A stretch of 64,000 nucleotides of DNA from Candidatus Methanophagales archaeon (lineage in GTDB: Archaea > Halobacteriota > Syntropharchaeia > Alkanophagales > Methanospirareceae): the NCBI GenBank assembly GCA_024699715.1, contig JANPRD010000005.1:1-64000 (forward strand), read 5' to 3'. Under the pieces are notes generated by a model, which did no database searches, was not told the DNA's origin, and saw only the letters and a program-made list of their open reading frames with translations. The position numbers were made by a program, and so were the translations under genes. Numbering within the stretch: the first letter of the stretch is position 1; each line of letters begins with the position of its first letter. Positions 44,002-63,580 of this stretch are shown in pieces.

Positions 44002-45060
44002 TCACATCAAGAAGAAGCCTCTCTTCCGCCTACGCAGCAGGTAAATGAAAAAAGGGACGCCGAAGAAAGCGGTAATAATGCCGACGGGCATCTCACCTAC
44101 GGAGAGTGTCATGTCAAGGAATCGGACAAGCGTGTCAGCCCAAACAAGCAGGATGCCTCCTGAGAGTGCAGAAGCAGGTAGAAGGATGCGGTGGTCTGCT
44201 CCCACGAGAATTCTTGTGATATGCGGGATGACCAATCCAACGAATCCAATCAGACCGCTGAAAGAGACCGCTGCTGCGGTGACGAATGCGGAGAGGACGA
44301 GAAGCGTCGCTTTCGCTCGCTCAACATTCACGCCGAGTGTCTTTGCGGTCTCTTCGCCGAGCAGCATTGCGTTCAAATCACGAGCATAAAATAAGAAAAG
44401 CGGGAATATTCCGAGAACGAGCGGAAATACTATTTTTACCGCTTCCCAATCCGCAAGTGGAAGCCTTCCTCCGAAGAGCCAACTCATAATACGATGCACA
44501 TCTCTCCCCATCATATACATGAAAAAGCTCAAAACGGCATTTAAAAGGAAAGAAACTGCTATTCCAGTGAGCAGTAAAGTTTCCAAATGTATTCTACCGC
44601 CCACTCTTGAGAGCGAATAAACGAAAAATGTTGAGAGAATTGCACATACAAAAGCAAAAAATGGGGTAGAATATACGCCAAGGAAGTGAGGTATGAATGC
44701 GATTGAGAGTGCTGCTCCCACTGCTGCACCAGAAGCGGTGCCGATGATGTAAGGGTCAGCCATCGGATTCTTGAACAATCCCTGCATCGCCACTCCCGCA
44801 ACAGAGAGAGCGAAGCCCACAAGAAATCCCAAAAATATGCGAGGCATCCTAAATTCAAATATTATTTTCTCGTATTTTGATTGTATCGGCGCATCGCAAA
44901 TACCCATCTTACTGCAAAATATCTTCACTATTTGCATCGGTGGTATATAAACATTCCCTACCGCAGTCGCAAGTAAGATTGTTAAAAATGAAAATACGAC
45001 CAAATAAACGATAATCATCTTCCAATGTAAGAATTTCCTGATAATTATGTTGTTGTTCAT
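44002..45060 (-). CDS. BtuC/FecCD-family ABC transporter permease
   Basis: FEFRMPRIFLGFLVGFALSVAGVAMQGLFKNPMADPYIIGTASGAAVGAALSI, LIGFVGLVIPHITRILVGADHR. Confidence 0.93.
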   Translation of the reverse strand: MNNNIIIRKFLHWKMIIVYLVVFSFLTILLATAVGNVYIPPMQIVKIFCSKMGICDAPIQSKYEKIIFEFRMPRIFLGFLVGFALSVAGVAMQGLFKNPMADPYIIGTASGAAVGAALSIAFIPHFLGVYSTPFFAFVCAILSTFFVYSLSRVGGRIHLETLLLTGIAVSFLLNAVLSFFMYMMGRDVHRIMSWLFGGRLPLADWEAVKIVFPLVLGIFPLFLFYARDLNAMLLGEETAKTLGVNVERAKATLLVLSAFVTAAAVSFSGLIGFVGLVIPHITRILVGADHRILLPASALSGGILLVWADTLVRFLDMTLSVGEMPVGIITAFFGVPFFIYLLRRRKRGFFLM

Positions 45061-45116
45061 TTTTAATCCTCTGCTTTGCGTTCTCTTTGCTCTTTCCTGT
45101 GGCACATTCAAGTGAC

Positions 45117-45917
45117 TTACACAAGCAGAGTTCTTCCCTGCTCTTTCTCGTTTCCGAAGAGGCATGAAACATTTCTCAGATGCTCTTTCGCAATTTTCAA
45201 CGCTTTCTCCATTTCTTCGCAGCGAGGAGAACGCCAAATCGCACCATGAACGGGAACATAAGCGTCTATTCTGTATGGAATTTCATCATCTATTTCGGAA
45301 ATGAAGCGTGCTATCCGCCTTATTTCATCGCAGTCAATATATGAAGGTATGAAAATGCTCTCCGCTCTCAAACTTAATCCATAATTTTTGCAGAAGTTAT
45401 ATGCAATAATGAAATTTTTCAGCACCCTCCTGTTCGGGAAACCTGTGAAATCCCTGTGAATTTCATCAGATATTGCCTTCAGAGATATGCAAACATCGTC
45501 AAAATGAAATAGATGCTCCTCAGTCAGCGAATAAGCATTCGTGAGCAATACATTTCGCATGCCTAATTCTTCCTTGCAGAACTCCGCAATTTCAGGCATT
45601 TCATCATGCACCGTAGGCTCTCCTCCCATGAAAATCGCAAGCGATGCATCTAAAATGCTCAATTTTCGCAGAACTTCGCCCATTAGCATCGTCCTGCTCG
45701 GAATTCTCTCATTCTTTCGTATGCATCCTTTGCATTTGAAGTTGCAATTCCTGAAGAATATGCATACTGACTTCAATTCTGGGTTGAATGTGATGCGATA
45801 TACGCCTGTCCTTTCGCAACAATGCTGAAAATGAAGCGGTAGGCGAAAATTTTCAACGACATGACTGCTTGCCTCTCTGCCCTCTCCGCTGTGGAGTTCA
45901 TTCATTTTTTGTCGCAC
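45117..45917 (-). CDS. Radical SAM protein
   Basis: FFRNCNFKCKGCIRKNERIPSRTM (CxxxCxxC), IFMGGEPTVHDEM, VLLTNAYSL. Confidence 0.88.
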   Translation of the reverse strand: MRQKMNELHSGEGREASSHVVENFRLPLHFQHCCERTGVYRITFNPELKSVCIFFRNCNFKCKGCIRKNERIPSRTMLMGEVLRKLSILDASLAIFMGGEPTVHDEMPEIAEFCKEELGMRNVLLTNAYSLTEEHLFHFDDVCISLKAISDEIHRDFTGFPNRRVLKNFIIAYNFCKNYGLSLRAESIFIPSYIDCDEIRRIARFISEIDDEIPYRIDAYVPVHGAIWRSPRCEEMEKALKIAKEHLRNVSCLFGNEKEQGRTLLV

Positions 45918-47218
45918 CTCTTGCGCATTCTTCGCAGAATGAAAACAAAAGAAATGGCGAAAACGCCTACGAATAGTTCAAAGCCCGCTGTGCTGACCTC
46001 CTCTTTCTTCTCTGTTCTATTACCGCATACACCTTTCAAATATTCATGAACAATCTCTATTGCATCAACTATTCTCGGTCCCGGTCGTGATACAATGTCC
46101 GCATCAATCTTGTAAACCCTGCCTTCTCGCACAGCATCAACACTTTTGAACCTCTCATCGCTCATTATTCGGTCATAATCAGGACACATATTACCCATTT
46201 CATTACATATTATCACTTGTGGGTTCAGCTCTATGATTTTCTCGGCGCTTATTTGGAAATATCCTTCCTTATAATCGGCAATATTATCACCTCCCGCAAT
46301 CTCAATTATCTCATCAGGAAATGTCCCTTCTCCCGCCGTCCAAAATTCGCCACATGTCTGAAATACTCGCGGTTTATTCCCCTCTTTCTCGCATAATACA
46401 TCCTCTTTCACTCTCTCTATGCGGCTTTTCATGCTTTTAACAAGCGAACTCGCATTATCTCTGTTCCCTGTAATCTCTCCAATCACTTCTATATACTTAT
46501 ATATATCATCAATATGCCTCGCATGCGTCCCATAAACTTTATAACCTGCTTCTACCAACCTTTTTATCACATCTTCGGGATTTCCATACGCAGAAACTAT
46601 TAAATCAGGCTCTAAAGCGACGATTTTCTCAAAACTCGGCGTTGAGAATCCTCCTATTACCCCTATTTTCCCCTCTTTCTTCAGCTCTTCAACCTCAGGT
46701 GGATAATTGCAGTATTCAGTTACACCAACAACATTTTCTCCTGCTCCTACTGCAAACAGAATCTCAGTGCAGGATGGGGCTAAAGAGACGATTCTTCTGG
46801 GCTTATCCGCAATACGAAGCGTGTAATTCTCAAGACCTCCGAACTCACGAACAGCATTCTCATCGCCTACCACCAAATAAGCGGTCAAATTCCACCGAAA
46901 TTGTGTCGTGTTCGCACCGCAAGAACCCACAACAGAAATGTTATATCTGCCATATTCTCCGAAATAATGAGAGAAATTTGAGGATTTTCCCTCACTCTCT
47001 TCTTTAAGTTCTCCATTTAAGAACCATGACCATGTGCAAACCTTATCAGAAGAGATGCCAAATTCCACTTCCTTACCTTCTCCGATGGAAATATCCACTG
47101 AAATATTTTTTGAAGCGTTTCCTGTTATGCTGTTCCAAGCCGAGAATTCCGCTGAAGCGGCGGGAAAAAGGAGAAGGACTGAGAATAGAAGGAGAAGCAG
47201 CGAGAAAATCGCTCGCAT
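45902..47218 (-). CDS. BtuF-like periplasmic-binding protein with signal peptide and C-terminal membrane/sorting helix
   Basis: RIVSLAPSCTEILFAVGAGENVVGVTEYCNYPPEV, ALEPDLIVSAYGNPEDVI, C-term STAGFELFVGVFAISFVFILRRMRKR. Confidence 0.9.
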   Translation of the reverse strand: MRAIFSLLLLLFSVLLLFPAASAEFSAWNSITGNASKNISVDISIGEGKEVEFGISSDKVCTWSWFLNGELKEESEGKSSNFSHYFGEYGRYNISVVGSCGANTTQFRWNLTAYLVVGDENAVREFGGLENYTLRIADKPRRIVSLAPSCTEILFAVGAGENVVGVTEYCNYPPEVEELKKEGKIGVIGGFSTPSFEKIVALEPDLIVSAYGNPEDVIKRLVEAGYKVYGTHARHIDDIYKYIEVIGEITGNRDNASSLVKSMKSRIERVKEDVLCEKEGNKPRVFQTCGEFWTAGEGTFPDEIIEIAGGDNIADYKEGYFQISAEKIIELNPQVIICNEMGNMCPDYDRIMSDERFKSVDAVREGRVYKIDADIVSRPGPRIVDAIEIVHEYLKGVCGNRTEKKEEVSTAGFELFVGVFAISFVFILRRMRKRCDKK

Positions 47219-47517
47219 TCCGGCTCAACCTCCTTTTGTGTTGTTTCACAATTCCCGTCCTTTGAGCGCAGGTCTCGCATTCTTGCTGAGCCTTAATTCG
47301 CCGTTCCTCACATGTGAAGTCGCAGCCACTCGCCGTGAATGCAAATCAAAGCGAACACTCGCAACGCATTCTTCAGTCGCTGGAGGACAATGCGGTTTCA
47401 GAGAGGGGATTTCGCCGCCACTCGCCCCCTGATGAAGTCGGTAATTCTCGTTGATTTCCATGCTTTTCCCTCCGAAAATTCTCACTTAAATCTTTTCGTA
47501 TTGATTCCAATTATAAT

Positions 47518-48825
47518 TCAAAAGGATAAGATGAGGGGTCTTGCGGCGGGGACATGAGAAACGCAGTCAGCAGCAGAATCCACTCTCGCATTAATTTTGC
47601 CTTTTTGATTTTTATATTTGTTTATTCTTTTCTTATTTTTCTTCCAGTCTGAGAGTAGTTTTGCGTGAGACCTTTTTTCTTTGTAATATCCGAGGTAGAA
47701 AAGAGCGATGAAGAGCACCGCAAGCAGTATCAAAAATAATGGAAGCGCCCCGCCACCGCCGCCACCTGACGCACCGGGAGAGATGTTTCCAAGTGGGAAG
47801 CCAAAAACTCTCTTCTCTCTTTCCGCAGTATAACTAGCATTCGTCGGAATTTGCATACCGCCGCCCACTTCACTTCCCTTGTCAGCTTTTCCGAAGCCTT
47901 CACCACCTCCGATGCCTCTGCCCGAGCCTATACCGCCTCCGATGCCACCTCCTATTCCTCCTCCCTGACCGGGACCGATGCCGAAGCTTACTGGTGATGT
48001 TACTGTCGGTGTCGGCGTCACCATCTCCACAAGAATGAACGCCTCTTTCTCGTTGTTCGTCTCGTTGTATTCTTCAATACCGTTATTCGGGTCAGCAACC
48101 GCTCTCAAAGTGTAGTTTCCTGGCGATTGTGGCGTCCATGAAGTTTCATCTGTCCATGTTTCTTCATTTCGTCTCAGAGACGGAATTATCCAATTTCCAA
48201 TCTCCTCACCAAGTTCCTCCACCTTAAGGATAACGCTTATGTTCTTTGCATCTGCGCCGTTGTTCCGCACCTTCACCCTTATACTGCAGGATTCGCCAAC
48301 CTCAGCATGAGCAGGTGCATCTATCTTCACTAATTCTATGTCGGGCATCATCGGATAAACGGTCACACTCTCGTTGAGCATGTTGTTTTTCAGATCCGAT
48401 TCGTATGCTTTTCTATCCGCATTTGCCACCGCCTGCAGCCAGCATATTGTCGGTTCTGTGACTTCAGGAGGAATCCACTGGAATTCTTCCACTGGTTTAC
48501 GCTCTCCCGGCTCAAGCGGCGCATCCACTGTTTTTTCTCCTATTGGTCCTCCGCCGTAACCCCCACCGCAGCTGTATGAGAGCGAAACATTGAACGATTC
48601 ATTCACAGGCGCTTCTCCTATGTTCTTCACCCATACTTTAACGGGCGTTTCAATGCCACCATATATTTTCTTCCCTTCCTCCCCAGCATCAATTTCATCA
48701 ACAACAATATCCGGCTTCTTCAGCAAGCCGATTGCCCACACTTTACCCCCGCCTGTTGTGTAAATCATGCCTTTCACGATAGCCACTGTTGAGCCACCGT
48801 AATCACGTGCGCCATTTAAGCTCAC
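47518..48825 (-). CDS. CARDB-domain surface protein, C-terminal segment with TM anchor
   Basis: VWVKNIGEAPVNESFNVSL, TLRAVADPNNGIEEYNETNNEKEAF (CARDB), Gly-rich linker, LPLFLILLAVLFIALFYLGYYKEKR. Confidence 0.8.
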   Translation of the reverse strand: MSLNGARDYGGSTVAIVKGMIYTTGGGKVWAIGLLKKPDIVVDEIDAGEEGKKIYGGIETPVKVWVKNIGEAPVNESFNVSLSYSCGGGYGGGPIGEKTVDAPLEPGERKPVEEFQWIPPEVTEPTICWLQAVANADRKAYESDLKNNMLNESVTVYPMMPDIELVKIDAPAHAEVGESCSIRVKVRNNGADAKNISVILKVEELGEEIGNWIIPSLRRNEETWTDETSWTPQSPGNYTLRAVADPNNGIEEYNETNNEKEAFILVEMVTPTPTVTSPVSFGIGPGQGGGIGGGIGGGIGSGRGIGGGEGFGKADKGSEVGGGMQIPTNASYTAEREKRVFGFPLGNISPGASGGGGGGALPLFLILLAVLFIALFYLGYYKEKRSHAKLLSDWKKNKKRINKYKNQKGKINARVDSAADCVSHVPAARPLILSF

Positions 48826-48888
48826 CTGTCAATGCATCCAAACACCATAAACCCACATAATCAGGCACCATACCATCCGCCCTCCGGC

Positions 48889-51800
48889 TCACCAACAAAC
48901 ACCTTTCTTATCTATTGATACGACGGGAGAGTTCGTCCAATGACCGATGCGATGCCAATTCCCTTCTTCATCCCTTATGTTGCCTTCTTTACCTTCCGAT
49001 GAAAGGTCCCATTTTATCACTCCTCTTCCATAAGAACGGCTCTCTTCCACATCAAAACATGTCACATAATTGTCATTAAGATAGCCGGCACCCGCAATAT
49101 AAACGAAAGAGCCTTCATCAAAAGACGCATATGCGGGTGTTGAATCCGTCGGTCTTTCATTATCTTGCCATTCTTTCTTCCATATCAATGAACCATCATG
49201 TGCATCCACACAATATATGCCTGATGTGGATTCGTAGAAGCCGTAAGTTGTCAGGTAAACTTCGCCTCCCACAGTCGTGATTGACGAAAAGACCCCTGAC
49301 GGAAACTCATGCTTCCATTTCACCTCGCCCGTCTCGGGATTCACACAATACAGAGCTCCTCCTCCTGAGGACCCCATGTAATTGGCGGAGCCGAGATAGA
49401 GGTTGCCAAGTGCAGCTCCCGGTGTTGACATCGCAGCCCCCTCGCTCCCCTCGCTCACCTTCAACGACCACGCATGCTCTCCCGATTTCCATGATGAAAC
49501 TCCGCCTGAATATTTCCAGCCAAGCACACTGTCAGGGTCCTCTACCGCCACAAAATCAACATCTTCTTGAGATACATTTGCAACCCTGCATGCATATTCA
49601 CCCGTGAAATTGTATCTGTTAGTGCCGTCAACACGATAGCAGTAATAAGTGCCGTTCTTGTATGTGCCAAAAAACACACTGTTGTAAGCGGCGAGAGCAC
49701 CTCCGTTCACTCCTGCTATATCCTCCTTTACGCTGCCAGCAAGGTAGTATTGCACTTGTGAATTGCCGGAATCCGCATCTATCTCGTGCAGTGCAACCGC
49801 AGGAACACTCCCTATCGGCTCTGCAGAGCGTCCTTCCGTCTTCATGAGGAAAACGGTGCCTCCCATCGGCACATATATTTTACCGTTGTAATATGCGGGT
49901 GTGAGCCATGAACCGTATTCCCACAGACCCTTCGGAGTGGATTTCCATATTACTGAACCATCCTCCGCATCCAGGCATGTCACCCATCCGCTCGTGCCGT
50001 CTGTGCAGAACACATATATCCTGTTGTTCACGACAATAAGCGATGATGAGGGGACTGCACCCACATCCGCACTGCACCACAGGAGCGTTGGAGCGTTAGG
50101 TGTTGTTGTCAGTGCGAATCCTGCGTTCGTATGGAATCCCGACCACGACTTCTCAGCACCTGAATTCAGTATCATGAATGTGTTTGACACTGCTTCTCCG
50201 TATGCATACTCCCCGTATGCTTCCACTTTTATCTTGTAGTCAAAACCATCAGCGACATTCCGGGTGTCCCATGAATATTCGCCTCTGTTCTCAATTGCAT
50301 GAGCAATCTCAAACCATCTCCTGCCCCTGTCAGGGCTATACCAGAGATTTATGTAAAGTGTTCTGTTGAAAGGAGCGCTCCACCTTATCTTCCTCACGCC
50401 TTTCCATCTCTCTCCGCCCTTCGGCGCTATGATTTCTACAGGAACCCTCTCAACAACATCCACTTTAACCGTCAGATTATTGTTTGTCTCATTTGATTCA
50501 TACATTGAATCGTTGCAATCAACAAAAAACGATACATTTAGCGTGCCTATTCGCCCGGGAATCCAGTTGAACTCAACAGTAGTGTTCCCGTAAAATGTAT
50601 CAACATGCCGCACAATCTCCTCGCTCTCGTTCTTAATACTTCCATTAATTATCATAGATACATTGAAATTGTCGCCCGCACCGCTTATGTTCAGTTTTAT
50701 CCTGTTTGATTCGTTGAAGAATATGTGAGGTGGCAGCACCACATTCACAGGCTTGAGGTCCGGAAGCACGACATTTACAAACGCTGTTTCGTTGTTGTTC
50801 GTTTCATCTCTTTCTATCACTTCATCATCGGAATCAACAAACACTCTCACTTTGTATTCGCCCGTTCTGTTGGGTTTCCAGTGCAGCACAATATCAAAAC
50901 GCTCATCAGCCCGCTCAGCTCGCAGATTCAGCTTGTCCACGAGATGCCATTCCTCACCGTTGCCGATGCCAGTGCCGTTTCCACCACTGATATTGCAGAT
51001 GAGAAGCGAGACATTGAAGCACCTCGCAACACCACCTATCTCAACATATATGGGATTTGTGGCATTCGCATATATTGTGGGAACCCGCATCCCCTTGACA
51101 TTGAGGTCCGGAGAGCTCACCCACACCATCTTCGTGAGGTTGTTATTGTTCTCATTTGATTCCTGCACGGCGTCATTGCAGTCAACGAAGACGGTGAGAT
51201 TGTGAACACCGACATGAGAAGGCGTCCAGTTGAGGGATACTTCAACAATTTCTTCCCTGTTCTCGCTCCCTATCCCATTTATCTCCTTCATATCCTGCAG
51301 CTCTTTTTCATCGTATAGCGCAACACTGAACCTTTCGTCCGTTCTTCCTCTTATTTTCACGACAACCTCATTCGTCAGGTTCACGATGCTCGTCTCTGCA
51401 TGCATCTCCAGAGGCATCAGGTCAGGATGTTTCACAAGAACGCTGATTGAGAATGCGTTGTTGCTCTCATCTCGCTCTTCCACTTCGTTAAAATAGTCAG
51501 CGAACACCGTTATGTTATGCGAACCTGCGCTTTCAGGGCGCCATTTGAATGACACCGTCTTCATGCCTTCCGCCCACACGTCTCCTGTTTGCATCGTGCT
51601 CACTGCCTTTCCGCTGTCAATCAGCGTAACGGGGATTACGCCGCCGTTGTTCTTCACGAACGCTGATATTGTGCAGTTTGCCCCTTCTATCGCATATGCG
51701 GGCGCATCCACACGCTCAACGCTCAGATCCGGAAGCGGTCTCTCCCTCAGTATCTCTATTGCCACTGGATATGGCTCACCGTTCAACGCAGTTATCCGCA

Positions 51801-51927
51801 TGTTGTATTCATCCACAGGCAGCTCCTCCCATCCGCTCAGAACTTCATATATGTGTATTACACGACCAAACTCCTCCATTTCACCTGCACGGAACATGTA
51901 AATATGCCTGTTCTCCTCATCCTTCAC
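48889..51927 (-). CDS. CARDB repeats plus PQQ-like beta-propeller segment of giant surface protein
   Basis: NDAVQESNENNNNLTK, DSDDEVIERDETNNNETAF; VTCLDAEDGSVIWKS, LYCVNPETGEVKWKHEF, IYCVDAHDGSLIWKKEW. Confidence 0.85.
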   Translation of the reverse strand: MKDEENRHIYMFRAGEMEEFGRVIHIYEVLSGWEELPVDEYNMRITALNGEPYPVAIEILRERPLPDLSVERVDAPAYAIEGANCTISAFVKNNGGVIPVTLIDSGKAVSTMQTGDVWAEGMKTVSFKWRPESAGSHNITVFADYFNEVEERDESNNAFSISVLVKHPDLMPLEMHAETSIVNLTNEVVVKIRGRTDERFSVALYDEKELQDMKEINGIGSENREEIVEVSLNWTPSHVGVHNLTVFVDCNDAVQESNENNNNLTKMVWVSSPDLNVKGMRVPTIYANATNPIYVEIGGVARCFNVSLLICNISGGNGTGIGNGEEWHLVDKLNLRAERADERFDIVLHWKPNRTGEYKVRVFVDSDDEVIERDETNNNETAFVNVVLPDLKPVNVVLPPHIFFNESNRIKLNISGAGDNFNVSMIINGSIKNESEEIVRHVDTFYGNTTVEFNWIPGRIGTLNVSFFVDCNDSMYESNETNNNLTVKVDVVERVPVEIIAPKGGERWKGVRKIRWSAPFNRTLYINLWYSPDRGRRWFEIAHAIENRGEYSWDTRNVADGFDYKIKVEAYGEYAYGEAVSNTFMILNSGAEKSWSGFHTNAGFALTTTPNAPTLLWCSADVGAVPSSSLIVVNNRIYVFCTDGTSGWVTCLDAEDGSVIWKSTPKGLWEYGSWLTPAYYNGKIYVPMGGTVFLMKTEGRSAEPIGSVPAVALHEIDADSGNSQVQYYLAGSVKEDIAGVNGGALAAYNSVFFGTYKNGTYYCYRVDGTNRYNFTGEYACRVANVSQEDVDFVAVEDPDSVLGWKYSGGVSSWKSGEHAWSLKVSEGSEGAAMSTPGAALGNLYLGSANYMGSSGGGALYCVNPETGEVKWKHEFPSGVFSSITTVGGEVYLTTYGFYESTSGIYCVDAHDGSLIWKKEWQDNERPTDSTPAYASFDEGSFVYIAGAGYLNDNYVTCFDVEESRSYGRGVIKWDLSSEGKEGNIRDEEGNWHRIGHWTNSPVVSIDKKGVCW

Positions 51928-54566
51928 TTTCCATGTGCTGCTCGCATTATGACCTCCACGCTCACTTCAGAGCTGTTTTCCGTGAATTCCAGATGATAAT
52001 CCTCAAATTCACTGTGCAGCTCCGGCAATGTTTTGTTCAGTGTCCCATTGTTCAGCTCTTCAATAAAAATTGAAGCATTCACAAAGAACAGATAACGCTC
52101 TATATTCTGCTTGCTGCTATTCAGATATTCAGCTGCATTGAGAGCGCTACTGTCATTGCCGTAGCCGGCGGCGATGAACGCCTGCAAAACTCTCGCAGTC
52201 GCAATCGCAGAAGAATCATCACCGAATCTTGAGAAGCTTCCATTAATTCTATCCTGCACCTTACGCAGATAACTTAATCCCTTCTCAATGCTCTCATCAA
52301 CAGCATCTCTCAGCGTTTCATTCAGTTCATTCAGGAATGGGCGGACTGCGCACAACGCCTGCACCGCGACTGCTGTATCGCTCGCCTTTCCTTCCATATA
52401 CGCACCGACGAACTCCCAGTGTCCGTCCTCATGCTGCTTGCTTATGAGGTCTTTTGTGACATTCTCCACAATCTCCCTTTTGAATGTTCTCGTGGATGCA
52501 AGCGCCATTAGCGTGTATGCATCGTTCCACGCAACATCGTATCCGCTCATGTTAGCTCCGTTGTAGAAGCGCTCCGTAGCACCGATGAAGTTTATGCCTG
52601 CGAAATCGTGAGGTCTTTCCCCTGAAGCCACAACGGACATCGTTCTCGCAGCCCATTCTCCAGCGCTTCGCAGCGATATCTGCGCTCCGTATTTGAGTGA
52701 ATCTTTCACCCACTGCTCACATCTGTCATCAAACCAGTCATAACTCTGAGGATCACTGCCACGAGCAAAAGCAGCCATCACCGCAATCGCAGGTGATATT
52801 GCGTTCCTTCGTGGCTCCTTCACATCAGGCGGACGCCACTGCTCCCTCCAGCTTCTGACAAATGAAGGGGCATCAACCACTTTCACTTTCACTGCGAACT
52901 CGTTATTCGTCTCGTTTATGTCCTCAATATCAGATGTAATTATCGCTTTTAACTCATATTCTCCATCATCATCGGGCTTCCACGAGAATACCGAACGCTT
53001 CTCCACATCAAATCCTTCAAATATGCCTCCTATATGTAGTGTGGTGTTGCTTATTTCGTGCCATGTCCCATCCTTTCTCACGAGCAGCGTGATGTTGAAT
53101 TCGCTTTCATTAATCAGACCGATTCCCGCCTTTCGCCTTATAAGCACATATACCGAATTGTTCACTCCCCTGTATATTCTGTTGGGAACGACAAAACCCT
53201 CAATGCTCGCATCAAGTTCTGTGTTGAACGGTTCAATCGCAGGATAACGGTCAGTCACAGGCTCCCCTTTCCACGGCTCAGGACTCGCATACCATTCATC
53301 GTATATGCCATCACTGTTGTTGTCAGTGCGGGGATAGCATCTCTCCCATGCATAGATGCCTTTTCCCCAGTCAACAATATGGAATCTGCCCCAGTAGTTG
53401 TGGTCCCATGAGTTGTCATATCCGCCATCCGAAGCTATTGGCGCAATCCTGTGGGCACCCATGCGGAACCCATAAGTATCATAGAGATTATTGTGGAATA
53501 TTTTGTTGTGTTTTCCTTCAACACGAATGCCTCCAAGCAACTTGCACAGTGTGTTATCCCTGATTATGTTGTCGTGAGAACGCTCATCAATATAAATCGC
53601 AGGACTTAAAACTCTCGGTCCCATTTCAAACATTGTTTTATCGGTCAGATATAGTATGGAATTTGAAATTATGCAATGTGATGAATTTATTATGTTTATA
53701 TTGGGCTGACCGTCAGCATATATCCTGCAATTGTCTATCGTTATCCTCTCACTGTTGGTAATTGAAAGCAATTTGTCAACTTCATCACAATTATAGCTTC
53801 CAGGTGAAGTGAACCTGATTGTGAAATTTTTTATTGTAATATCGCTTGAGTTTTTGATGTTTATACCCTTCAAAATATACCCTTCAATCTTATTAATATA
53901 TACTTCTCCTACGAAAACATTCCATCCCTCACCTATGATTGTGATGTTATGTTTGTTTTCAACAGTGAATCCCAAATAATCGCCATCATGCACATATATA
54001 ACGGTGCCGGGTGCGGCATCTTCCACCGCTTCCTCTATTGTTGAGAAATCACGAGGCACATCTATCACACGACCACGCACAACCTCTCGCTCTTCACTCA
54101 AATTATTGTTTGTCTCATCAAGCTCATCAACGAAATTTCCATCATCAACGGACACAAGTATTTCATACAATCCGTAATCTGCGGCGAGCCATTTGAGTGT
54201 CAGTGAGGCATTGCCGCCAGACGGCACATAAACAGTGCCGAAATCTTGAAGGCTGAAGTTTTCTCCCGCCCCTCCTTCACTCAATCGGCGAACATAAAGC
54301 GACACATTTGCATTGATTCCAACATATCCACGATTCTCAATCGTTACATTGACGGGGATTTGCCTTCCGAGATATAAAGTGCGAGGCATTTCCATGCGAG
54401 AAGGCACAAAATCCGGCTTCGGATATACACCGAGCAAATTCAAATCCAGAGGAGACCAGCCGTATGTCTTCCTGAGAGACAATAAGAGATGCATTCGCCT
54501 CCTCAGGTATCCATGTGCCATTCCGCTCGTCATAAATCCACAACTTCGGTTCTGAAAAGCCCGCAA
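51924..54566 (-). CDS. Beta-helix (NosD-like), CARDB and prenyltransferase/squalene-cyclase-like alpha/alpha repeat segment of giant surface protein
   Basis: VIDVPRDFSTIEEAVEDAAPGTVIYVHDGDY; DINETNNEFAVKV; HEDGHWEFVGAYMEGKASDTAVAVQALCAVRPFL, SSAIATARVLQAFIAAGYG. Confidence 0.8.
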   Translation of the reverse strand: MRAFQNRSCGFMTSGMAHGYLRRRMHLLLSLRKTYGWSPLDLNLLGVYPKPDFVPSRMEMPRTLYLGRQIPVNVTIENRGYVGINANVSLYVRRLSEGGAGENFSLQDFGTVYVPSGGNASLTLKWLAADYGLYEILVSVDDGNFVDELDETNNNLSEEREVVRGRVIDVPRDFSTIEEAVEDAAPGTVIYVHDGDYLGFTVENKHNITIIGEGWNVFVGEVYINKIEGYILKGINIKNSSDITIKNFTIRFTSPGSYNCDEVDKLLSITNSERITIDNCRIYADGQPNINIINSSHCIISNSILYLTDKTMFEMGPRVLSPAIYIDERSHDNIIRDNTLCKLLGGIRVEGKHNKIFHNNLYDTYGFRMGAHRIAPIASDGGYDNSWDHNYWGRFHIVDWGKGIYAWERCYPRTDNNSDGIYDEWYASPEPWKGEPVTDRYPAIEPFNTELDASIEGFVVPNRIYRGVNNSVYVLIRRKAGIGLINESEFNITLLVRKDGTWHEISNTTLHIGGIFEGFDVEKRSVFSWKPDDDGEYELKAIITSDIEDINETNNEFAVKVKVVDAPSFVRSWREQWRPPDVKEPRRNAISPAIAVMAAFARGSDPQSYDWFDDRCEQWVKDSLKYGAQISLRSAGEWAARTMSVVASGERPHDFAGINFIGATERFYNGANMSGYDVAWNDAYTLMALASTRTFKREIVENVTKDLISKQHEDGHWEFVGAYMEGKASDTAVAVQALCAVRPFLNELNETLRDAVDESIEKGLSYLRKVQDRINGSFSRFGDDSSAIATARVLQAFIAAGYGNDSSALNAAEYLNSSKQNIERYLFFVNASIFIEELNNGTLNKTLPELHSEFEDYHLEFTENSSEVSVEVIMRAAHGK

Positions 54567-57500
54567 CTTCCGTTATGATATTATCCTCGCACTTGGGCGC
54601 TTCAAGCCCGTGCTTCTCGCAGAACTTACAAGTTGCCTCAAATATCGTCGCATTCCTCACAACATACAAACTGTCATAGATGACTGCTCCTCCTCCAGTA
54701 TACATAAGCATGTTTATTTTTGTCGCTTCTTTCACCTCCACACAGGTGGAATTAACATTATTGCTCTCATTTGTCTCCACAATATTATCTGAACTGTCAA
54801 CTTTAACGCTCAGTGTGTAGTTGCCAGTTGCGGTAGGTGTCCAGTTGAATCTCAAAACCTTTCGCTCGCTTCTGTTTATCTCGCTCAGTGTTCTGTAATC
54901 TCTGTCTATGACAGAGCCATTTCTGAGCACTTCAAACATCACAGATACAGCATCAAAACCATAACGCCACGAAATATCATAGTCGCCTATGTTCGCAATC
55001 GTCACATTTATGTCATTTGAGACATTCACAAAAACATCATTGAAGACATCACATGGCTCCACACGCTCAACTATGAGGTCTGCGGATGTGAAATAGAATT
55101 CAGCACAGCGCTCATTGTTCTCTTCATTCCTCTCTTTTATCTCGTTTGATGCATCCGCATGCACGCACACATGGAATTTCCCTGGAACATCTGACTTAAA
55201 TTCAAATGAAATGTCTCTGCTCTCTCCGTATTTCAGCCCGTTTATTGTTCTGTTTGTTATGTTAACAACGAACTCTTTGCCGAGAGCAGTTTCATTCTTC
55301 ACAATGAACGAGACATTGAATGTGTCGTTGAAGCTCTTTCCCTGATTTGAAATCGTAACATTCACGGGGCATTTCTCCTTTACAAGAGTTTTCTTTCTCA
55401 CTTTGAGCGTTTCGAGAACAATGTCAGGCATATCAAGCGGCAGTGTGATGTTGAAATTGAGATAACCATACCCAAAGTTGGAACGGTTCAGACATATTGA
55501 CGATGTGTTTGTGCTGCCTCCCTGGTCTGATGCGGTCACATCAAAACATAACACATCAAAACATAAGCTCGCAGGCATGAAAATCCAGTAAGACGAGTTC
55601 TCGCTCATGTTCTTGTAATAATTCGCACTCACGCTCACATTTGCGGCGGCGCAAGCCCTGCCATCCTCATAAGTTATGTTTCCGGAAAGCAGGAAAGGTG
55701 TGTCAGGCGGACTGAGCGGTGCTTCACTCACATTTATTGAGAAGGAATATGTGTTATTGCTCTCATTCGTCTCTGGTATCTCATCGTTCGCATCCACAAA
55801 CACAGAAATATTATATGTGCCCGTGTATTTCGGGACAAATTTGAATTCCACCTTCCTCACTTCATCGGGAGAAATCTCCACCCGTTTCGTTATTGATGTG
55901 GAATTGTCAGCGGCGTCAGTGGCGTTGGTGGCGTTAGTAGCAGTGGCGATGAAAGTCACATTCAGCGGCACTTTGATGTCGCCACGATTCATGACAAATA
56001 CCCACACTGGAACCGTGAAATTACGATAAGGTATGCCGTTTACACTCACTCTCTCTATGTATAAATCACTCTTGCCTATCACCTCCACACTTGTGTTATA
56101 AGTGTTGTTGCTCTCGTCTCTCTCAGCAATCTCATCAGAGGAGTCCAATATGAATGTGAGGTTATACTTTCCTTTGCTGCGGGGCGTCCAGTTGAGCTGT
56201 AATTTGCCTATGTAATACGAAAAAATTGCGGTATCAGTGGGAGAATATCCTGTGTAATATCTTTCCTTTATCTCTTCCATTTTTACACTAACACGCTTGG
56301 TTACAATATCGGGCACATCATCCTCTGTATCCTCTTTGCGTGCTATGAGTGTTATATTGAAGCTCTCGTTATCAAGTGGTGCACCGTCATTTTTCACGGT
56401 TACCTCAATTGTGTTTGAGGCATTGACGAAGCAGTATTTAAGCTCGCTGCCGAGCATGCTCACATTTATGATGAAAAGTTCAGGTGCGGTTATGCTGACA
56501 TCAGCGATTGCTTTGTTATCGTTCTCATTCGCCTCCTCTATTTCATTTGCTGAGTCAACAGTGGCAATGAGCGTTGTGGAAGGAATATCATCACGAGAAG
56601 GCGTCCAGTTGAACTGAACTGTGAGATTTGACATGCTTTCAATGCCCGGAATGCGTTTTGTCATCGTGTATCCGCTTTTTGAGGATGTGAGAGAGATGTT
56701 GAATGCGCTCGCATTTGAGCCAGGGTTTGTCACATCCAGAACAACAGGCACTGTGCGGTTCAGCCTCGCCTCTTCAGGTGCAGATACGAAATAAACTCTG
56801 AGATTTGGTCGCTCCATGCTGCCCACTACGATAGAATGGTGGGAGTTGAGAATCGCTATATCATCAAACATAACCTCGCCTCTTATGTTGTTGCTTCTGC
56901 TCTTGTGTTCATCACCGCAAATGCACAGACTTATGGATTCCACTTTTATCGCATCATCGCCCACCACAACACCTCTTGATTCAAGGTCATCTCGCAGATT
57001 TCTGTATATGTGATGCCATTTGCCGTCTGGAGGTGTGATGTTGAAATCATATCCTCCGCTTTCAACAGGAATATAGCCGTATCTGAGTGCATAAGAATGT
57101 CCTGAAACCTTAACACGAACCTCCAGATATGCATTCGTGATACTTGATGTGCTATTCATCACTTTCATACGCGCTGATAAAATCGGAGCATACGATGAAA
57201 TGTTTGTCTCATGCGACATACAAACAGATTTAACCCTTGAACCTGACAGATCGTAAGGACATGATTTGGTTATGTTCATGACCAATGAGCCGTTTCGCTC
57301 CTTGACGAACCCATCAGCCGAGCATAATCTCGGATTTGACCAACCGTAAAAATGTATATGCTCTCCATATTCTATATAATTGCTCCAGTCCTCGTAGAAT
57401 GATGCCACGGCAGATGCATTGCTCGGTGATAAGACATCAGCGCACGCAGGACACCCGTAAAAAATGCGGAGCGTGCACGGCACGGATACATTCGTGAATA

Positions 57501-57762
57501 ACACACTCCCGTTTGGTGAGAACCACGCAACCCAGAAAGGCACTTCTTCCTCCCCTCTGAACACACGGATGTCTGAACCATCCTTCAAAGAGCTGTTGTA
57601 AACATCCGACGACAGCTCTATCGGCACCGCAACATCGCTTAAATTGTCGCCTCTCACATTTATCTTGACGGTTGTGTTGTATCGCCACTTGAGGTCGGGA
57701 TTCACATGAATGCGCTTACTGAATGCGCTCACTCTCATTTTGAAGCTGGAAGAGGGAGACAT
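54337..57762 (-). CDS. DUF2341 and multiple CARDB domain segment of giant surface protein
   Basis: WRYNTTVKINVRGDNLSDVAVPIELSSDVYNSSLKDGSDIRVFRGEEEVPFWV (DUF2341); repeated DSSDEIAERDESNNTYN, DANDEIPETNESNNTYSF. Confidence 0.85.
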   Translation of the reverse strand: MSPSSSFKMRVSAFSKRIHVNPDLKWRYNTTVKINVRGDNLSDVAVPIELSSDVYNSSLKDGSDIRVFRGEEEVPFWVAWFSPNGSVLFTNVSVPCTLRIFYGCPACADVLSPSNASAVASFYEDWSNYIEYGEHIHFYGWSNPRLCSADGFVKERNGSLVMNITKSCPYDLSGSRVKSVCMSHETNISSYAPILSARMKVMNSTSSITNAYLEVRVKVSGHSYALRYGYIPVESGGYDFNITPPDGKWHHIYRNLRDDLESRGVVVGDDAIKVESISLCICGDEHKSRSNNIRGEVMFDDIAILNSHHSIVVGSMERPNLRVYFVSAPEEARLNRTVPVVLDVTNPGSNASAFNISLTSSKSGYTMTKRIPGIESMSNLTVQFNWTPSRDDIPSTTLIATVDSANEIEEANENDNKAIADVSITAPELFIINVSMLGSELKYCFVNASNTIEVTVKNDGAPLDNESFNITLIARKEDTEDDVPDIVTKRVSVKMEEIKERYYTGYSPTDTAIFSYYIGKLQLNWTPRSKGKYNLTFILDSSDEIAERDESNNTYNTSVEVIGKSDLYIERVSVNGIPYRNFTVPVWVFVMNRGDIKVPLNVTFIATATNATNATDAADNSTSITKRVEISPDEVRKVEFKFVPKYTGTYNISVFVDANDEIPETNESNNTYSFSINVSEAPLSPPDTPFLLSGNITYEDGRACAAANVSVSANYYKNMSENSSYWIFMPASLCFDVLCFDVTASDQGGSTNTSSICLNRSNFGYGYLNFNITLPLDMPDIVLETLKVRKKTLVKEKCPVNVTISNQGKSFNDTFNVSFIVKNETALGKEFVVNITNRTINGLKYGESRDISFEFKSDVPGKFHVCVHADASNEIKERNEENNERCAEFYFTSADLIVERVEPCDVFNDVFVNVSNDINVTIANIGDYDISWRYGFDAVSVMFEVLRNGSVIDRDYRTLSEINRSERKVLRFNWTPTATGNYTLSVKVDSSDNIVETNESNNVNSTCVEVKEATKINMLMYTGGGAVIYDSLYVVRNATIFEATCKFCEKHGLEAPKCEDNIITEVAGFSEPKLWIYDERNGTWIPEEANASLIVSQEDIRLVSSGFEFARCISEAGFCAFSHGNASHFISRKANPRQCND

Positions 57763-57872
57763 TCAACGAATAATTGCCTGCGTGTGTCGGCGTCCACCTG
57801 AACGAGAATGTGCGAGATGACTTGTGAGGCACTTCTCCTCTCCGCACATCGTCAAATACAACAGAAGCATCC

Positions 57873-60389
57873 TCATCCCATATTGTCATGCGAACAGTCA
57901 CATTTGCATCCGCCTTCACCTCTGTTTTCAACAAGCACACGCATATCAGAAGTCGCATTCGCATAAAAGGTGGCATTCTCAACGCTGACATTCAGCTCAG
58001 GCTCCCCTATGTTCGCACAAATAACCGAGTGATTCATGCCAAATATCGCAATATTGTCAAAATAGCCCGTTGATTTCTCCGAATAGCGTGATGATTTGCA
58101 CTCAACACGGAGAGCAATCCTCGTAATATTGAAGAATTCTGGGACTTCAATGCCCTTACTGCGCAAATCTTCTCGCAAATTGCGGTGTATATGCCACACA
58201 TGCCCCTCTGGCTTCGGGTAGAAAGCGAAATAAAGCGTGTCATCAGTGTCCTCAGGAAGATGATTTGATAAACTATACCACAAATGATAAATTTTGCCTG
58301 AAACATTCACATCTATTATGTAAGATAATGATTCACCGAGCATGTATGATACTGAATCGGCACGAGCATCAGCACAGAAGAATGCATTGCTCACATTCAT
58401 GGAAAGCTCCCGATACAGTTCAGCACTCTCCGCACCTGATGCCGACAATTTCAGCGAATAGTTGCCTTCTATCGGTTCATCCCTGCATCTGCTTCTGTGG
58501 AGTCTCAGGTCCTCCCACCAGTCCAACGGCGGATTGCCCAACCACTTGTCAAGACTTGGAGACTCCCAATCCTCAAAGAATGAAGCGATAATTGTCTCAT
58601 TGCGACGATTGACAGTGCAATTTCCGTAGCACAGATGCACGACACTTGAATTTGAATCCGTTTTGAACCATATTCTGCTTATTCCTGATGTGTTCCACTC
58701 CTCTATCCAGTATGGCAGGTCCTCTCCTTTGTCGTTTTTTATCCGCAAATCAGAGCCATCTGGATTAACTTTCGCATAGTCAAAGATTGAAGGGTCAAGA
58801 GTGAGCAGCACAGTCGCATTTTTTATTGCAGGCTTCAAACTCACATTTTTCATGAATGCGAAGCCCCAGTATTTCAGAGAATTCACACACACATCCCAGC
58901 TCATATTGTTGTTCGTTTCATTCAATTCATCCACAATGTTTCTTTCATCAGCCTTCACGATGAGCGTGTAATTCCCTTCTTTTGGGGGATTCCAGATGAA
59001 TTCAACAATTCTTGAGCTTTTGTGAGGCACCGTTATCGTTTCATTCGCAATTTCTTGAGGCTCACTCACACCACTCACATTATCATTATCACGAACATAA
59101 AGGGCGACTGTGAAGTTGCGGGCGTCAGCAGTGCCTTCATTCGTGACATTCACAAGTATCTGATTTGGGAAATTTGCGTAACAGAAACGATATCTTGATG
59201 AAATATTTGAGATTGTGATGTCAGCAAGCCCGAAATCAACGAATGGTTCTCGTTCCGCACACTTCCTTAGCCGAACATTGTCCACGAGGATGCTCACATT
59301 GTAGTTCCACCAGTTGTTCGCTGCGAAGAAGCCCAAATCTGTGTTCGTGCCCACGAACTTTGAAAGGTTTACTGAGACGAGACGCCAATCCGTCACATTC
59401 TCAGTCTCAAATACACACTCAAAATCGCCTGCGGAGACATTGCCAACGATAGCGCCAGCCCGCAGCCTCTCGTTCTGCTCGCATTCGGTTCGCATCCAGA
59501 ACTCCAAGCGATGCTGAATGCTTAAATTTTTATAGAGGATTCCCATGCAGTTTGAGTGAGTATAAGCGGTGATTTTTGCGGAACACGATGAATTATCCGG
59601 CGTGTCGTCAGATAGTGAGAAGTTACATGGCATCTCCACGCTATAATGCACACACTTTTTCTTCCAGTCAAAGCACTCTTTGCATTCGAAATCCTCAAAA
59701 TAAGGAAATACGAGTGCGCCTGAGCTCCTTGAAGGTATGTCTGAGGCATTCCAATACATCTTCACAACTTGCTTTCCCGGCTGAATCTCAGGAAGGAGAA
59801 GCCATATCCTGCTCTCTCCAGAGGTGTTCCATAATTCAACCCAGTATGGAATCGGCTCGCCACCGACTTTGAACGAGATGTCCTCACCATTATGACGCAC
59901 CTCCGAGTAATTGAATATAGAGGGGTCAAGCCTCAACAGGACAGGATAGTCGTGAAGCGTGCAATTTAATGGGTTTTCCACTGTGATGTTCTGCTCATAA
60001 TGCCAAGACAGTGCGGAATGAACATGCACACACTCCTCCTTGCAGTTGTTCGTCTCGTTGGATTCAGTTATTTCGTTATTTGCGTCAACAGTAACATTTA
60101 AGGTATAATCTCCCGCTTTATCAGGCACCCAACAGAATGTCACAAGTGCAACCGTATCAGGTTCAAGCGATATTAACTTTGAGTCCTCTGTATGTCCGTT
60201 CACATTGAACGATACAGAGAGGTTGCGAACAACTGACGCACCATTATTCTTTATCCACGCCCTCACCAGACTCAACTCATTCACGAAAGGTTTCGTAACC
60301 TCAAACTTAACTACCTCAAGGTCTTCCGTCGTTGATAAGTCAGTAACATTACTACTCATCGTTTTGTTGCTCGTCTCGTTAAAGCTCAT
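57873..60389 (-). CDS. CARDB and DUF2341 repeats, N-terminal segment of giant surface protein
   Basis: DANNEITESNETNNCKEECVHVHSALSWHYEQNITVENPLNCTLHDYPVLLRLDPSIFNYSEVRHNGEDISF; ADERNIVDELNETNNNMSW. Confidence 0.85.
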   Translation of the reverse strand: MSFNETSNKTMSSNVTDLSTTEDLEVVKFEVTKPFVNELSLVRAWIKNNGASVVRNLSVSFNVNGHTEDSKLISLEPDTVALVTFCWVPDKAGDYTLNVTVDANNEITESNETNNCKEECVHVHSALSWHYEQNITVENPLNCTLHDYPVLLRLDPSIFNYSEVRHNGEDISFKVGGEPIPYWVELWNTSGESRIWLLLPEIQPGKQVVKMYWNASDIPSRSSGALVFPYFEDFECKECFDWKKKCVHYSVEMPCNFSLSDDTPDNSSCSAKITAYTHSNCMGILYKNLSIQHRLEFWMRTECEQNERLRAGAIVGNVSAGDFECVFETENVTDWRLVSVNLSKFVGTNTDLGFFAANNWWNYNVSILVDNVRLRKCAEREPFVDFGLADITISNISSRYRFCYANFPNQILVNVTNEGTADARNFTVALYVRDNDNVSGVSEPQEIANETITVPHKSSRIVEFIWNPPKEGNYTLIVKADERNIVDELNETNNNMSWDVCVNSLKYWGFAFMKNVSLKPAIKNATVLLTLDPSIFDYAKVNPDGSDLRIKNDKGEDLPYWIEEWNTSGISRIWFKTDSNSSVVHLCYGNCTVNRRNETIIASFFEDWESPSLDKWLGNPPLDWWEDLRLHRSRCRDEPIEGNYSLKLSASGAESAELYRELSMNVSNAFFCADARADSVSYMLGESLSYIIDVNVSGKIYHLWYSLSNHLPEDTDDTLYFAFYPKPEGHVWHIHRNLREDLRSKGIEVPEFFNITRIALRVECKSSRYSEKSTGYFDNIAIFGMNHSVICANIGEPELNVSVENATFYANATSDMRVLVENRGEGGCKCDCSHDNMG

Positions 60390-60565
60390 CTCGTTGTTAA
60401 TTGTATTATTACTGGTGTTATCAATATTTTCTGCATCCGTGCATGAAACATTATTGTATTATTAGTAGTTGCATTGGTTGCATTTGATGAATTACCTATA
60501 TAAGCTGATGTCAGGGAGACACAAATCAAAGCAATAATGCTCACAGCCACAAGTTTCCTGAGCAT
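60386..60565 (-). CDS. Signal-peptide start of the giant surface protein
   Basis: MLRKLVAVSIIALICVSLTSAYIGNSSNATNATTNNT; frame offset from 57873..60389. Confidence 0.65.
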   Translation of the reverse strand: MLRKLVAVSIIALICVSLTSAYIGNSSNATNATTNNTIMFHARMQKILITPVIIQLTTR

Positions 60566-60603
60566 TATCCCTCCCCCTCCCGAAAAATAAAAAAATGAAA
60601 GGT

Positions 60604-60942
60604 TCAGGCTGCAGGCGCATACCACAGCCTGAATGCGGGTATCCAATCGTCATACTCTTTTCCATTTGCGTCCCTGAACAGCGTGCAGGTGATGTTCCCG
60701 CCATTCACTTGCTTATAATGTGCGTGTATTATCTGCGGATAAGAGCCCGTTTTTATGATGTAATTGTAGATTACACCCTTCTCAAGTGTGAGCGTTGTGT
60801 TGAATGAGAGATTGTGGTAGTCAGCGACGTGGTAGCCGTTCCACTCTGCAACAGCACATTCTCCAGTGGTTTCATTCCATATTTTCACATATTCAATATG
60901 ACCGCCAGTGCCAGCGCACGGATATGAGTATATTCTGTTCAC
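60604..60942 (-). CDS. C-terminal domain continuing the DUF4430 protein (frameshifted)
   Basis: YSYPCAGTGGHIEYVKIWNETTGECAVAEWNGYHVADYHNLSFNTTLTLEKGVIYNYIIKTGSYPQIIH. Confidence 0.6.
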   Translation of the reverse strand: MNRIYSYPCAGTGGHIEYVKIWNETTGECAVAEWNGYHVADYHNLSFNTTLTLEKGVIYNYIIKTGSYPQIIHAHYKQVNGGNITCTLFRDANGKEYDDWIPAFRLWYAPAA

Positions 60943-61778
60943 CGTGATGTTTCGGCTGGGGATGATAGTGCCGTAATGCGTGCCTGAGATGCTGGGGTAT
61001 GTTCCTCTGCCCGTGTCAAATTCATTTGAGCCACCGTAACATTGATTATCAATACTTTGGGCGAATTCTCAGGCGTCATGTCCATACTACTGCTCCAATA
61101 CCATGTGACGACATCGCCATCTTCCACCACATATTCAGCCGCACCGACCATGGGCATCGGTTCATCAGGATAATTCACCCAATACATCCACCCGCTCCAA
61201 CCTTCATTTGGTATATCTGCGATGGAATCAACGAAAAGAATGCCCCATTCATCCGAAACAGTGTAATTGAACCCGCCGGCATGTGCTGCTGCATCCAAAG
61301 CTCCGAGTGCGGTCGTGCAGTTCACAACATATTCTTTTCCGCTATTGTGTGCAGTTACATTGAATGTAGTTCCATTTATCAATGTTACATCGCCTTGCCA
61401 GATGATTTCTTGTGGCGCTTCAAGTGAAATGTTAAGAAGTATTCCCCCATTATCAATATCCGATTGCGTTACTTCATGCTCTATTGTCTTTAACTGGTCG
61501 CAACATGAGGCGTTGAACCTGAGTATGTCGCCTGCATTCACATCATTACTGTCAAGAATGAGCTGATAATAGTTAATTGCATTCGTCTCCGCCTGCCACT
61601 CCGCACCTGTGTTCAGATTTGATATGCTCACTGCAGGATTATCGCACGGCTCGCCACCGCTTGTGCTGACCCAGCCGCAAATCACGAACGGCGAAGGCTG
61701 TGCTATCACATGTGCCACCACCGCTGCCAAGCACACCACCACAATAACGAGCAATGCTGCGGATATTCTCCCTCTCAT
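60939..61778 (-). CDS. Secreted DUF4430 (transcobalamin-like C-terminal) domain protein
   Basis: Signal peptide; TTALGALDAAAHAGGFNYTVSDEWGILFVDSIADIPNEGWSGWMYWVNYPDEPMPMVGAAEYVVEDGDVVTWYW. Confidence 0.8.
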   Translation of the reverse strand: MRGRISAALLVIVVVCLAAVVAHVIAQPSPFVICGWVSTSGGEPCDNPAVSISNLNTGAEWQAETNAINYYQLILDSNDVNAGDILRFNASCCDQLKTIEHEVTQSDIDNGGILLNISLEAPQEIIWQGDVTLINGTTFNVTAHNSGKEYVVNCTTALGALDAAAHAGGFNYTVSDEWGILFVDSIADIPNEGWSGWMYWVNYPDEPMPMVGAAEYVVEDGDVVTWYWSSSMDMTPENSPKVLIINVTVAQMNLTRAEEHTPASQARITALSSPAETSR

Positions 61779-62140: not shown

Positions 62141-63580
62141 CTATGATTGCACTGCCGTTAAGGTTATTGTTCCGCTATAGTCTCCTTGAGGCGTTCCATA
62201 AGGCACGAACAGCTTGAAATCCACATTTTCAAGGCTGAGTTCTCCCGCAGGCATGTTCACATCGAAGAACCGTTCCACGCTCATGTCATAGTAGTTTTGT
62301 TCTCCCGGTATATTATCAATTCTGACCCCGATATTATTATTTGCGATTACATTACCGTTGGAAGTCATATTTGTCCCGCTTACATACACATCAATTATCA
62401 CATTACCGATGTTCCGAATGGTAGCATTGTTCAGCGTTGACATGTTTTCATCGCCGAGCACTTCACGCATCTCGCCGGGGTTGATCGGTCCATTACTTGA
62501 AAAGTTAATTATATTTGTATCAAGTTCAAGAGCGATTGCAGTTTGGTAATCAAAAGTGGTGGAGTTACTGCCTGTTAAGTTGCTCATATCAGTTGCGGTG
62601 ACATTCACCGTGTAAGTTCCATTAGCGTAATAGAAGCTCATGTTGAACGTTCCATTGAAAATTGCTGTTTTCGTGTCGTGAGAAACCAAGTTTAATGTGA
62701 CTGGACTGTCGGCTACGGTATATGGACCTGTTATCACAGCCACTACTGTATTTATATCATCCCAGCCGTTGGGGTCGCTAACCACCGCAGATATGTTAAC
62801 AGTCTTATTTGCACCTGGAATCGGGTTTATCTGCACTCCTTCTTCCGCAGCAGATTCGTCAGGCGTTACCGTTATGCTCTCCACTACTGGTGCCTCCGCT
62901 GGTGTCGGCAGTGTGAGATTGAAGTTGAACAGCCCGCCGTTGTTTATTTCGCTCTGCGTTACCGAGTGGTTCGTGGTGTTAGATTGAGTTCCATCCGAGA
63001 CATTGAATTCAAGCACATCCCCAGCACTCACATTTGTCGCATCAAGAATGAGCTGATAGTAATTATAACTTGCATTTGTCTCTGCATGCCAATGCATGCT
63101 CGTGTTCTTATTCGTGATGTTCACTGTTGAACCATTACAAGCAATACCGTTATTGTAATTGACCCAGCCGTAGATAATGAAAGGCGTTCCCGGCGGCGCT
63201 TCAAGCGTAATATTAAAGTTAAACAGCCCACCGTTATTCACCTCCGTTTCGGTTACGGCATGATTGAGCACTTTAGACTGCTCTCCATCAGGGCTCGTGA
63301 CATAGAACTGCAAAACTTCGCTGACATTCAGGTCAGTTCCGTTAGCGAGCGTGAGCTCGTAGTAATTATAACTTGCGCTTGTTTTAGCAGTCCATTCATT
63401 GCTGTTGTTCACATTTGTAATGCTCACTGTGGGATTCTTGCATGCCGTTCCGTTCTTGTAGAACACATTGCCGTGAATTATGTATGGTGTTGAAGGCGGT
63501 GGTGTCGCAGTAACAACTAATACAGCTGCAAGCAGTATTGCTAACACTAATAATGCGGACAATAATCCTTCCGTCCTCAT
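62141..63580 (-). CDS. Secreted surface protein with repeated carboxypeptidase-regulatory-like modules
   Basis: Signal peptide LLSALLVLAILLAAVLVVTATPPPSTPYIIHGNVFYKNGTACKNPTVSITNVNN and second copy FIIYGWVNYNNGIACNGSTVNITNKN. Confidence 0.75.
   Translation of the reverse strand: MRTEGLLSALLVLAILLAAVLVVTATPPPSTPYIIHGNVFYKNGTACKNPTVSITNVNNSNEWTAKTSASYNYYELTLANGTDLNVSEVLQFYVTSPDGEQSKVLNHAVTETEVNNGGLFNFNITLEAPPGTPFIIYGWVNYNNGIACNGSTVNITNKNTSMHWHAETNASYNYYQLILDATNVSAGDVLEFNVSDGTQSNTTNHSVTQSEINNGGLFNFNLTLPTPAEAPVVESITVTPDESAAEEGVQINPIPGANKTVNISAVVSDPNGWDDINTVVAVITGPYTVADSPVTLNLVSHDTKTAIFNGTFNMSFYYANGTYTVNVTATDMSNLTGSNSTTFDYQTAIALELDTNIINFSSNGPINPGEMREVLGDENMSTLNNATIRNIGNVIIDVYVSGTNMTSNGNVIANNNIGVRIDNIPGEQNYYDMSVERFFDVNMPAGELSLENVDFKLFVPYGTPQGDYSGTITLTAVQS

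Follow-up and report, generated by a model that had tools for sequence, protein, structure and literature searches.

The B12 carriers of animals, intrinsic factor, transcobalamin and haptocorrin, are built from two blocks, an alpha/alpha toroid and a DUF4430-type beta-grasp domain, and in the intrinsic factor family the toroid lies N-terminal to the beta-grasp within one chain. The pairing of DUF4430 with a toroid was described by Burroughs et al. 2007 (PMC1796856), who predicted that the bacterial form, coupled to CbiO/CbiQ, is a B12 scavenger; they also listed some archaeal DUF4430 members, and suspected a distinct metabolite for the archaea. Capture of B12 at the cell surface for an importer is also known from the Bacteroides lipoproteins BtuG and BtuH (PMC6143338, PMC10404256), which are described as partners of the outer-membrane transporter BtuB. 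Here we analyse a stretch of 64,000 nucleotides (the window) from contig C15 of a Candidatus Methanophagales (ANME-1) genome (G000; 1.49 Mb, 80% complete). Judging from the sequence and its genomic context, we think it probable (roughly 0.75) that a locus on the minus strand of the window encodes a system that scavenges corrinoids (the B12 family) at the cell surface and imports them.

Read from 61.8 to 44.0 kb, the locus runs DUF4430 protein, giant CARDB protein, BtuF-type binding protein, radical SAM enzyme and BtuC-type permease (Table 1). These five co-directional parts had been named in a first-pass annotation of the DNA, and all of them are present with Pfam support. The two pieces of the DUF4430 gene are orthologous to one 667-aa protein of G034, with 64% and 78% identity. 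The BtuC reading frame is open to 45237, and alignment with relatives places its start probably near 45057. No NCBIfam model reaches its cut-off in a scan of the radical SAM enzyme, and the window itself holds no corrinoid-specific gene. A stretch of the giant near 54.4 kb resembles DUF4430 by eye, but a profile search finds nothing there. Positions 62141-63580 and 63587-64000 of the window belong to a conserved surface-protein cluster common to G016 (L069), the copy in G016 being without toroid and without BtuF.

Table 1. Features of the minus-strand locus, with positions in the window, and domain fusions found in related loci
Feature	Position or loci	Strand	Remarks
Secreted DUF4430 protein (transcobalamin C-terminal-like, beta-grasp)	60604..61778	-	Two frames: 60939-61778 and 60604-60942
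DUF4430 domain	61092-61313	-	Pfam PF14478 6e-10, above cut-off, in ORF 60939-61778
Giant CARDB/DUF2341 surface protein	47518..60646	-	Signal-peptide start near 60565; C-terminal TM
Pieces of the giant	57873-60389, 57716-57991, 54337-57762, 51924-54566, 48889-51927, 47518-48825		
Right-handed beta-helix/NosD-like domain in giant	53451..53873	-	Pfam Beta_helix 5e-7, NosD 0.008
Alpha/alpha-toroid domain (prenyltransferase/terpene-cyclase-like repeat) in giant	51927..52829	-	94% to G010, 33% to G001
PQQ-like beta-propeller domain in giant	49132..49689	-	Pfam PQQ_2 2e-16
Membrane-anchored BtuF-type substrate-binding protein	45902..47218	-	Pfam PF01497 (Peripla_BP_2) 3e-36; TIGR04281 4e-52; BtuF 6e-28
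Radical SAM enzyme, between BtuF and BtuC	45117..45917	-	Pfam PF04055 (Radical_SAM) 3e-14
BtuC-type permease	44002..45057	-	PF01032 (FecCD) 1e-92; PRK09535 BtuC 3e-97
Toroid-BtuF fusion	L101, L102, L106, L108, L119, L045		In Methanomicrobiales
DUF4430-BtuF fusion	L051, L052, L056		In Methanophagales
DUF4430-toroid in one chain	e.g. L091-L097, L113		In Archaeoglobaceae
Toroid then DUF4430 fusion			In Methanothrix and Patescibacteria

A compact version of the locus occupies the same position in G006 (L046), a genome of the same family. Its flanks match those of the window (TIM barrel 50%, ATP-synthase E 47% and F 55%; MobB in both), and its BtuC and BtuF are 65% and 47% identical to the window proteins. 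Between the common flanks G006 has DUF4430, a compact toroid protein, BtuF and BtuC, and the window has DUF4430, the giant with its toroid, BtuF, the radical SAM enzyme and BtuC; the giant therefore stands where G006 has its compact toroid protein. In G034 (L057), which belongs to another genus, the order is DUF4430, giant, ExbB, DUF2149, BtuF and radical SAM. The position of the radical SAM gene between BtuF and BtuC recurs in other Methanophagales (L051-L054, L057-L059). In G023, the gene directly after BtuC encodes a subtilase of 1,992 aa that carries BNR repeats (L047:7082-13060).

Linkage of these domains recurs well above chance. Of the 19 toroid places in relatives, 13 have a BtuF-type protein no more than 10 kb away, where 0.4 were expected, and the same holds for 15 of the 30 loci with a long DUF4430 gene (1.1 expected). 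The DUF4430 gene of the window counts as a miss in this tally, since the giant intervenes and BtuF is ~14 kb away. A short DUF4430 paralogue of about 180 aa served as internal control and was near a BtuF-type protein in 1 of 41 cases (1.2 expected). When archaeal toroid loci with record titles were counted by eye, 27 of 30 had a BtuF-type gene. The association of DUF4430, toroid and BtuF is seen in three archaeal groups, Methanophagales, Archaeoglobaceae and Methanomicrobiales, and co-occurrence in other archaea, which the first-pass annotation had proposed as a check, is thus borne out. There are counter-cases: the giant of the close relative G010 stands alone, not beside BtuF, and the DUF4430 orthologs of G016 and G026 have neither toroid nor BtuF nearby. 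In three loci (L050:8274-10166, L181:8619-9791 and L183:3055-4200) BtuF carries a toroid-profile match on its C-terminal side, the reverse fusion order. The short DUF4430 protein is single-copy, is found in the source genome at G000:C14:32932-33108, and has one copy in most relatives. One locus titled Candidatus Nitrosotalea (L098, DYFG01000055.1) shows the same gene calls and the same 9,747 size as a contig of G025, of the Methanophagales family, and its title is probably the result of mis-binning.

As in the BtuCDF B12 importer, BtuF and BtuC types are present together and matched. PRK09535, the archaeal BtuC model, is the closest to the window BtuC, albeit below its curated cut-off, and Fec/Fhu models score lower. 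In a tree, this protein groups with the BtuC proteins of CbiB/CbiZ/CobS operons (placement support 94/90, not starred). The best solved relative of the window BtuF is the B12-binding protein 5ysc (4e-32), with the 'iron-binding protein' 4m7o almost level. A grouping of BtuF and BtuC with iron-siderophore transporters would have counted against the first-pass annotation, and it was not found: the nearest relatives are not those of a FecBCD importer. The locus does differ from BtuCDF systems in that the BtuD ATPase is not adjacent, its candidate ortholog lying on contig C10; there is no outer-membrane BtuB, and the archaeal locus adds surface capture modules and the radical SAM enzyme.

The toroid of the giant is weak by Pfam alone (SQHop_cyclase_C, 0.0025). 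Its compact archaeal relatives pass the Pfam cut-offs themselves, and a profile built from them matches the toroid of G010 at 54.5 bits and those of other giants at up to 183 bits. An AF2 model of the window domain is an alpha/alpha toroid at moderate confidence (pTM 0.68). Because the compact-toroid profile matches the G010 copy and the model is a toroid, we regard the domain as firm by transitivity, and the prenyltransferase-like alpha/alpha domain of the first-pass annotation holds. In the structural comparison that the annotation called for, the fold is that of a toroid, but the AF2 models, which are ligand-free, do not resolve a corrinoid pocket and so offer no structural proof of one, and their similarity to cyclases and prenyltransferases equals or exceeds that to B12 carriers. 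With foldseek, haptocorrin ranks 5 and transcobalamin 7 among cyclases for the window toroid, all at E >0.001, and the top matches of a modelled Archaeoglobaceae DUF4430-toroid chain are cyclases and prenyltransferases; on these models, foldseek does not separate carrier from cyclase. The toroid profile run against PDB sequences returns cyclases and prenyltransferases, and no B12 carrier, intrinsic factor included.

The DUF4430 half does match the animal proteins. The best PDB matches of the archaeal DUF4430 profile are haptocorrin (8e-6), intrinsic factor (3e-4) and transcobalamin-2 (8e-4), and a WGPxxxCIxGxC stretch is common to haptocorrin and the Archaeoglobaceae DUF4430. Both halves of the B12-carrier fold do stand beside the importer, as the first-pass annotation maintained, although on separate neighbouring proteins and not in one chain. 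We do not file the window proteins in the intrinsic factor family, because the toroid is on the neighbouring giant and the giant has no DUF4430; the pair may nevertheless work, by analogy, like a member of that family. Further differences are that the Archaeoglobaceae single chain runs DUF4430 then toroid, the reverse of the animal order, and that the archaeal system is surface-anchored and coupled to BtuF/BtuC, with a toroid nearer to cyclases by sequence. The bacterial transcobalamin-like SLBB proteins resemble the locus in having a secreted DUF4430 with a toroid, fused or in the same operon, whereas their operons hold CbiO/CbiQ, which the window locus does not, and the archaeal ones hold BtuF/BtuC and BtuF fusions. 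The likeness to BtuG and BtuH, compared by description only, is that of an extra surface protein capturing B12 for an importer, as is proposed here; the pairing with BtuB sets them apart.

Genes of corrinoid metabolism are linked to the system in relatives. One Pfam-confirmed operon (L061) runs CobS, CbiZ, aminotransferase, CbiB, BtuC, DUF71, BtuF, ExbB and giant toroid protein, and the L062 operon resembles it. CbiB adjoins DUF4430 genes in L048; in L092 CbiZ is flanked by BtuD and DUF4430, and in L099 it is next to BtuD. The signatures of DUF71 proteins are ENGEF/YH in the B12 subgroup versus EGGE/DxE in the diphthamide type (PMC3541065); the DUF71 of these loci carries ESGEYH, which fits the former and not the latter, and is therefore taken to be of the B12 type. 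In bacteria, a cobalamin/AdoCbl riboswitch is located upstream in 20 of 28 loci with a homologous toroid, mostly directly before the toroid or DUF4430 gene, while none was found in the window or in any archaeal locus searched. In the source genome CbiZ adjoins CobS, and CbiB is present too; CbiC was not found in it, and there are only two TP-methylases. Since the genome is 80% complete and ring genes are clustered, these absences are weak, suggestive evidence. The presence of a toroid is not a mark of B12 auxotrophy, as it shows no correlation with loss of CbiC (8/15 versus 9/23 without CbiC, p=0.5). Taken with the linkage and the fusions, the operons with CbiZ, CbiB, CobS and DUF71 and the bacterial riboswitches support the corrinoid-scavenging reading of the first-pass annotation.

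We propose that the DUF4430 protein and the toroid of the giant, assembled with each other or with partner copies, would bind corrinoids outside the cell, as the paired domains of intrinsic factor and transcobalamin do. The CARDB repeats and C-terminal membrane helix of the giant would anchor the toroid so that it sits at the S-layer or reaches through it. From there the ligand would be handed to the membrane-anchored BtuF and pass through BtuC with the remotely encoded ATPase BtuD, and the radical SAM enzyme may have a part in the process. Inside the cell, CbiZ, CbiB and CobS would rebuild a cobamide from the salvaged corrinoid.

ExbB and DUF2149 are paired in the Hmu-type modules of Bacteroidota. 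L057 and L064 have the same pair next to their giant toroid protein, and ExbB is present in L061 and L062; their location beside related giants suggests energised movement. It is conceivable, though doubtful, that in Methanophagales the giant acts as the moving component of an energised corrinoid receptor at the surface, with its C-terminal membrane helix coupling to an ExbB-like channel and DUF2149, as an archaeal counterpart of TonB-driven uptake acting across the S-layer and not an outer membrane. Unlike in the Hmu-type modules, no CobN/HmuS-like protein or TonB-dependent receptor was noticed beside the giants. The window copy of the giant is without the ExbB/DUF2149 pair, which occurs elsewhere in the genome. 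On contig C10 (L175:3-7071; G000:C10:50-57 kb), ExbB and DUF2149 follow another CARDB surface gene, which is spread over several frames; a small toroid-like protein is encoded there on the other strand. DUF2149 matches in relatives form score classes, those at ~85 bits often being beside BtuF-type genes (G001, G017, G018, G029, G030, G032, G034) and those at 115-120 bits apparently not.

Could the locus be one that no longer works, or one that works in something else? In this assembly the giant is divided into six pieces in different frames. We treat them as one gene with about five frame breaks because they are collinear with a single 4,428-aa ORF of G010, at 82-93% identity over the aligned length. 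There is one further break in the DUF4430 gene, and the BtuD ortholog is also frame-broken (G000:C10:69237-70534, 66% identity), so that the breaks might be real mutations in a locus decaying in this genome, of which only BtuF, the radical SAM enzyme and BtuC still work. This is a minority view that we think deserves some weight; against it, the identity to G010 is maintained along the whole length of the giant pieces, and breaks scattered over unrelated genes resemble assembly indels, which are the simplest reading. It is less likely still that the giant and its DUF4430 neighbour serve general surface or attachment roles and stand beside BtuF and BtuC by chance. CARDB, beta-helix and propeller domains are frequent in surface proteins, the solitary giant of G010 would fit, and in G016 (L069) the DUF4430 gene is part of the surface-protein cluster without BtuF that has several genes in common with 60-64 kb of the window. 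Against this, toroid and BtuF are repeatedly linked or fused in three archaeal groups, the locus matches the compact G006 operon in position, and the short DUF4430 paralogue shows no linkage to BtuF.

If the locus is an importer with capture modules, its ligand could be another large metal-tetrapyrrole or metallophore, such as heme, coenzyme F430 or a siderophore. The 'distinct metabolite' of Burroughs et al. was suggested for archaea in general terms, archaea often make B12, toroid presence is independent of the loss of ring synthesis, and BtuF-type proteins also bind heme and siderophores, such proteins ranking close in the PDB list. The B12-type DUF71 and the CbiZ, CbiB and CobS genes of the operons, with the bacterial cobalamin riboswitches, point instead to corrinoids, and we give another ligand only about one chance in ten's worth of credence. 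That the toroid is a secreted terpene-cyclase-like enzyme and not a carrier seems very improbable to us. Cyclases are the top PDB sequence matches of the toroid profile, and 38 of 101 toroid domains, the compact relatives among them, have the D-x-D-D-T stretch of class II cyclases; yet this motif is missing from the window and G010 copies, the window toroid reading KASDTA at the place of the DxDD acid motif. Moreover, the compact toroid proteins carry signal sequences, no terpene genes were noticed in the neighbourhood, and the riboswitches found with the bacterial homologs indicate B12.

Surface scavenging of corrinoids thus remains our preferred reading. The general type was already predicted in 2007; what this analysis adds is a variant in archaea that is coupled to BtuFC, includes BtuF fusions and has a giant surface scaffold. 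A search by term of two ANME genome papers (PMC9012536, PMC9894754) found nothing on cobalamin or Btu proteins, and PMC10553843 discusses cobalamin dependence for the bacterial partners; the search covered open-licence literature, so the variant may have been noticed before in other work.

With this locus, the 2007 question of whether the archaeal transcobalamin-like proteins serve B12 or another ligand becomes testable, and three lines favour a corrinoid: the fusions to BtuF, the operons with CbiZ, CbiB and CobS, and the riboswitches at the loci of bacterial homologs. The locus is also relevant to how the animal B12 carriers arose: archaea have both of their halves, encoded separately or fused in several different orders. 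In methane-oxidising consortia, several Methanophagales genomes without detectable ring-synthesis genes may get their corrinoids from neighbours.
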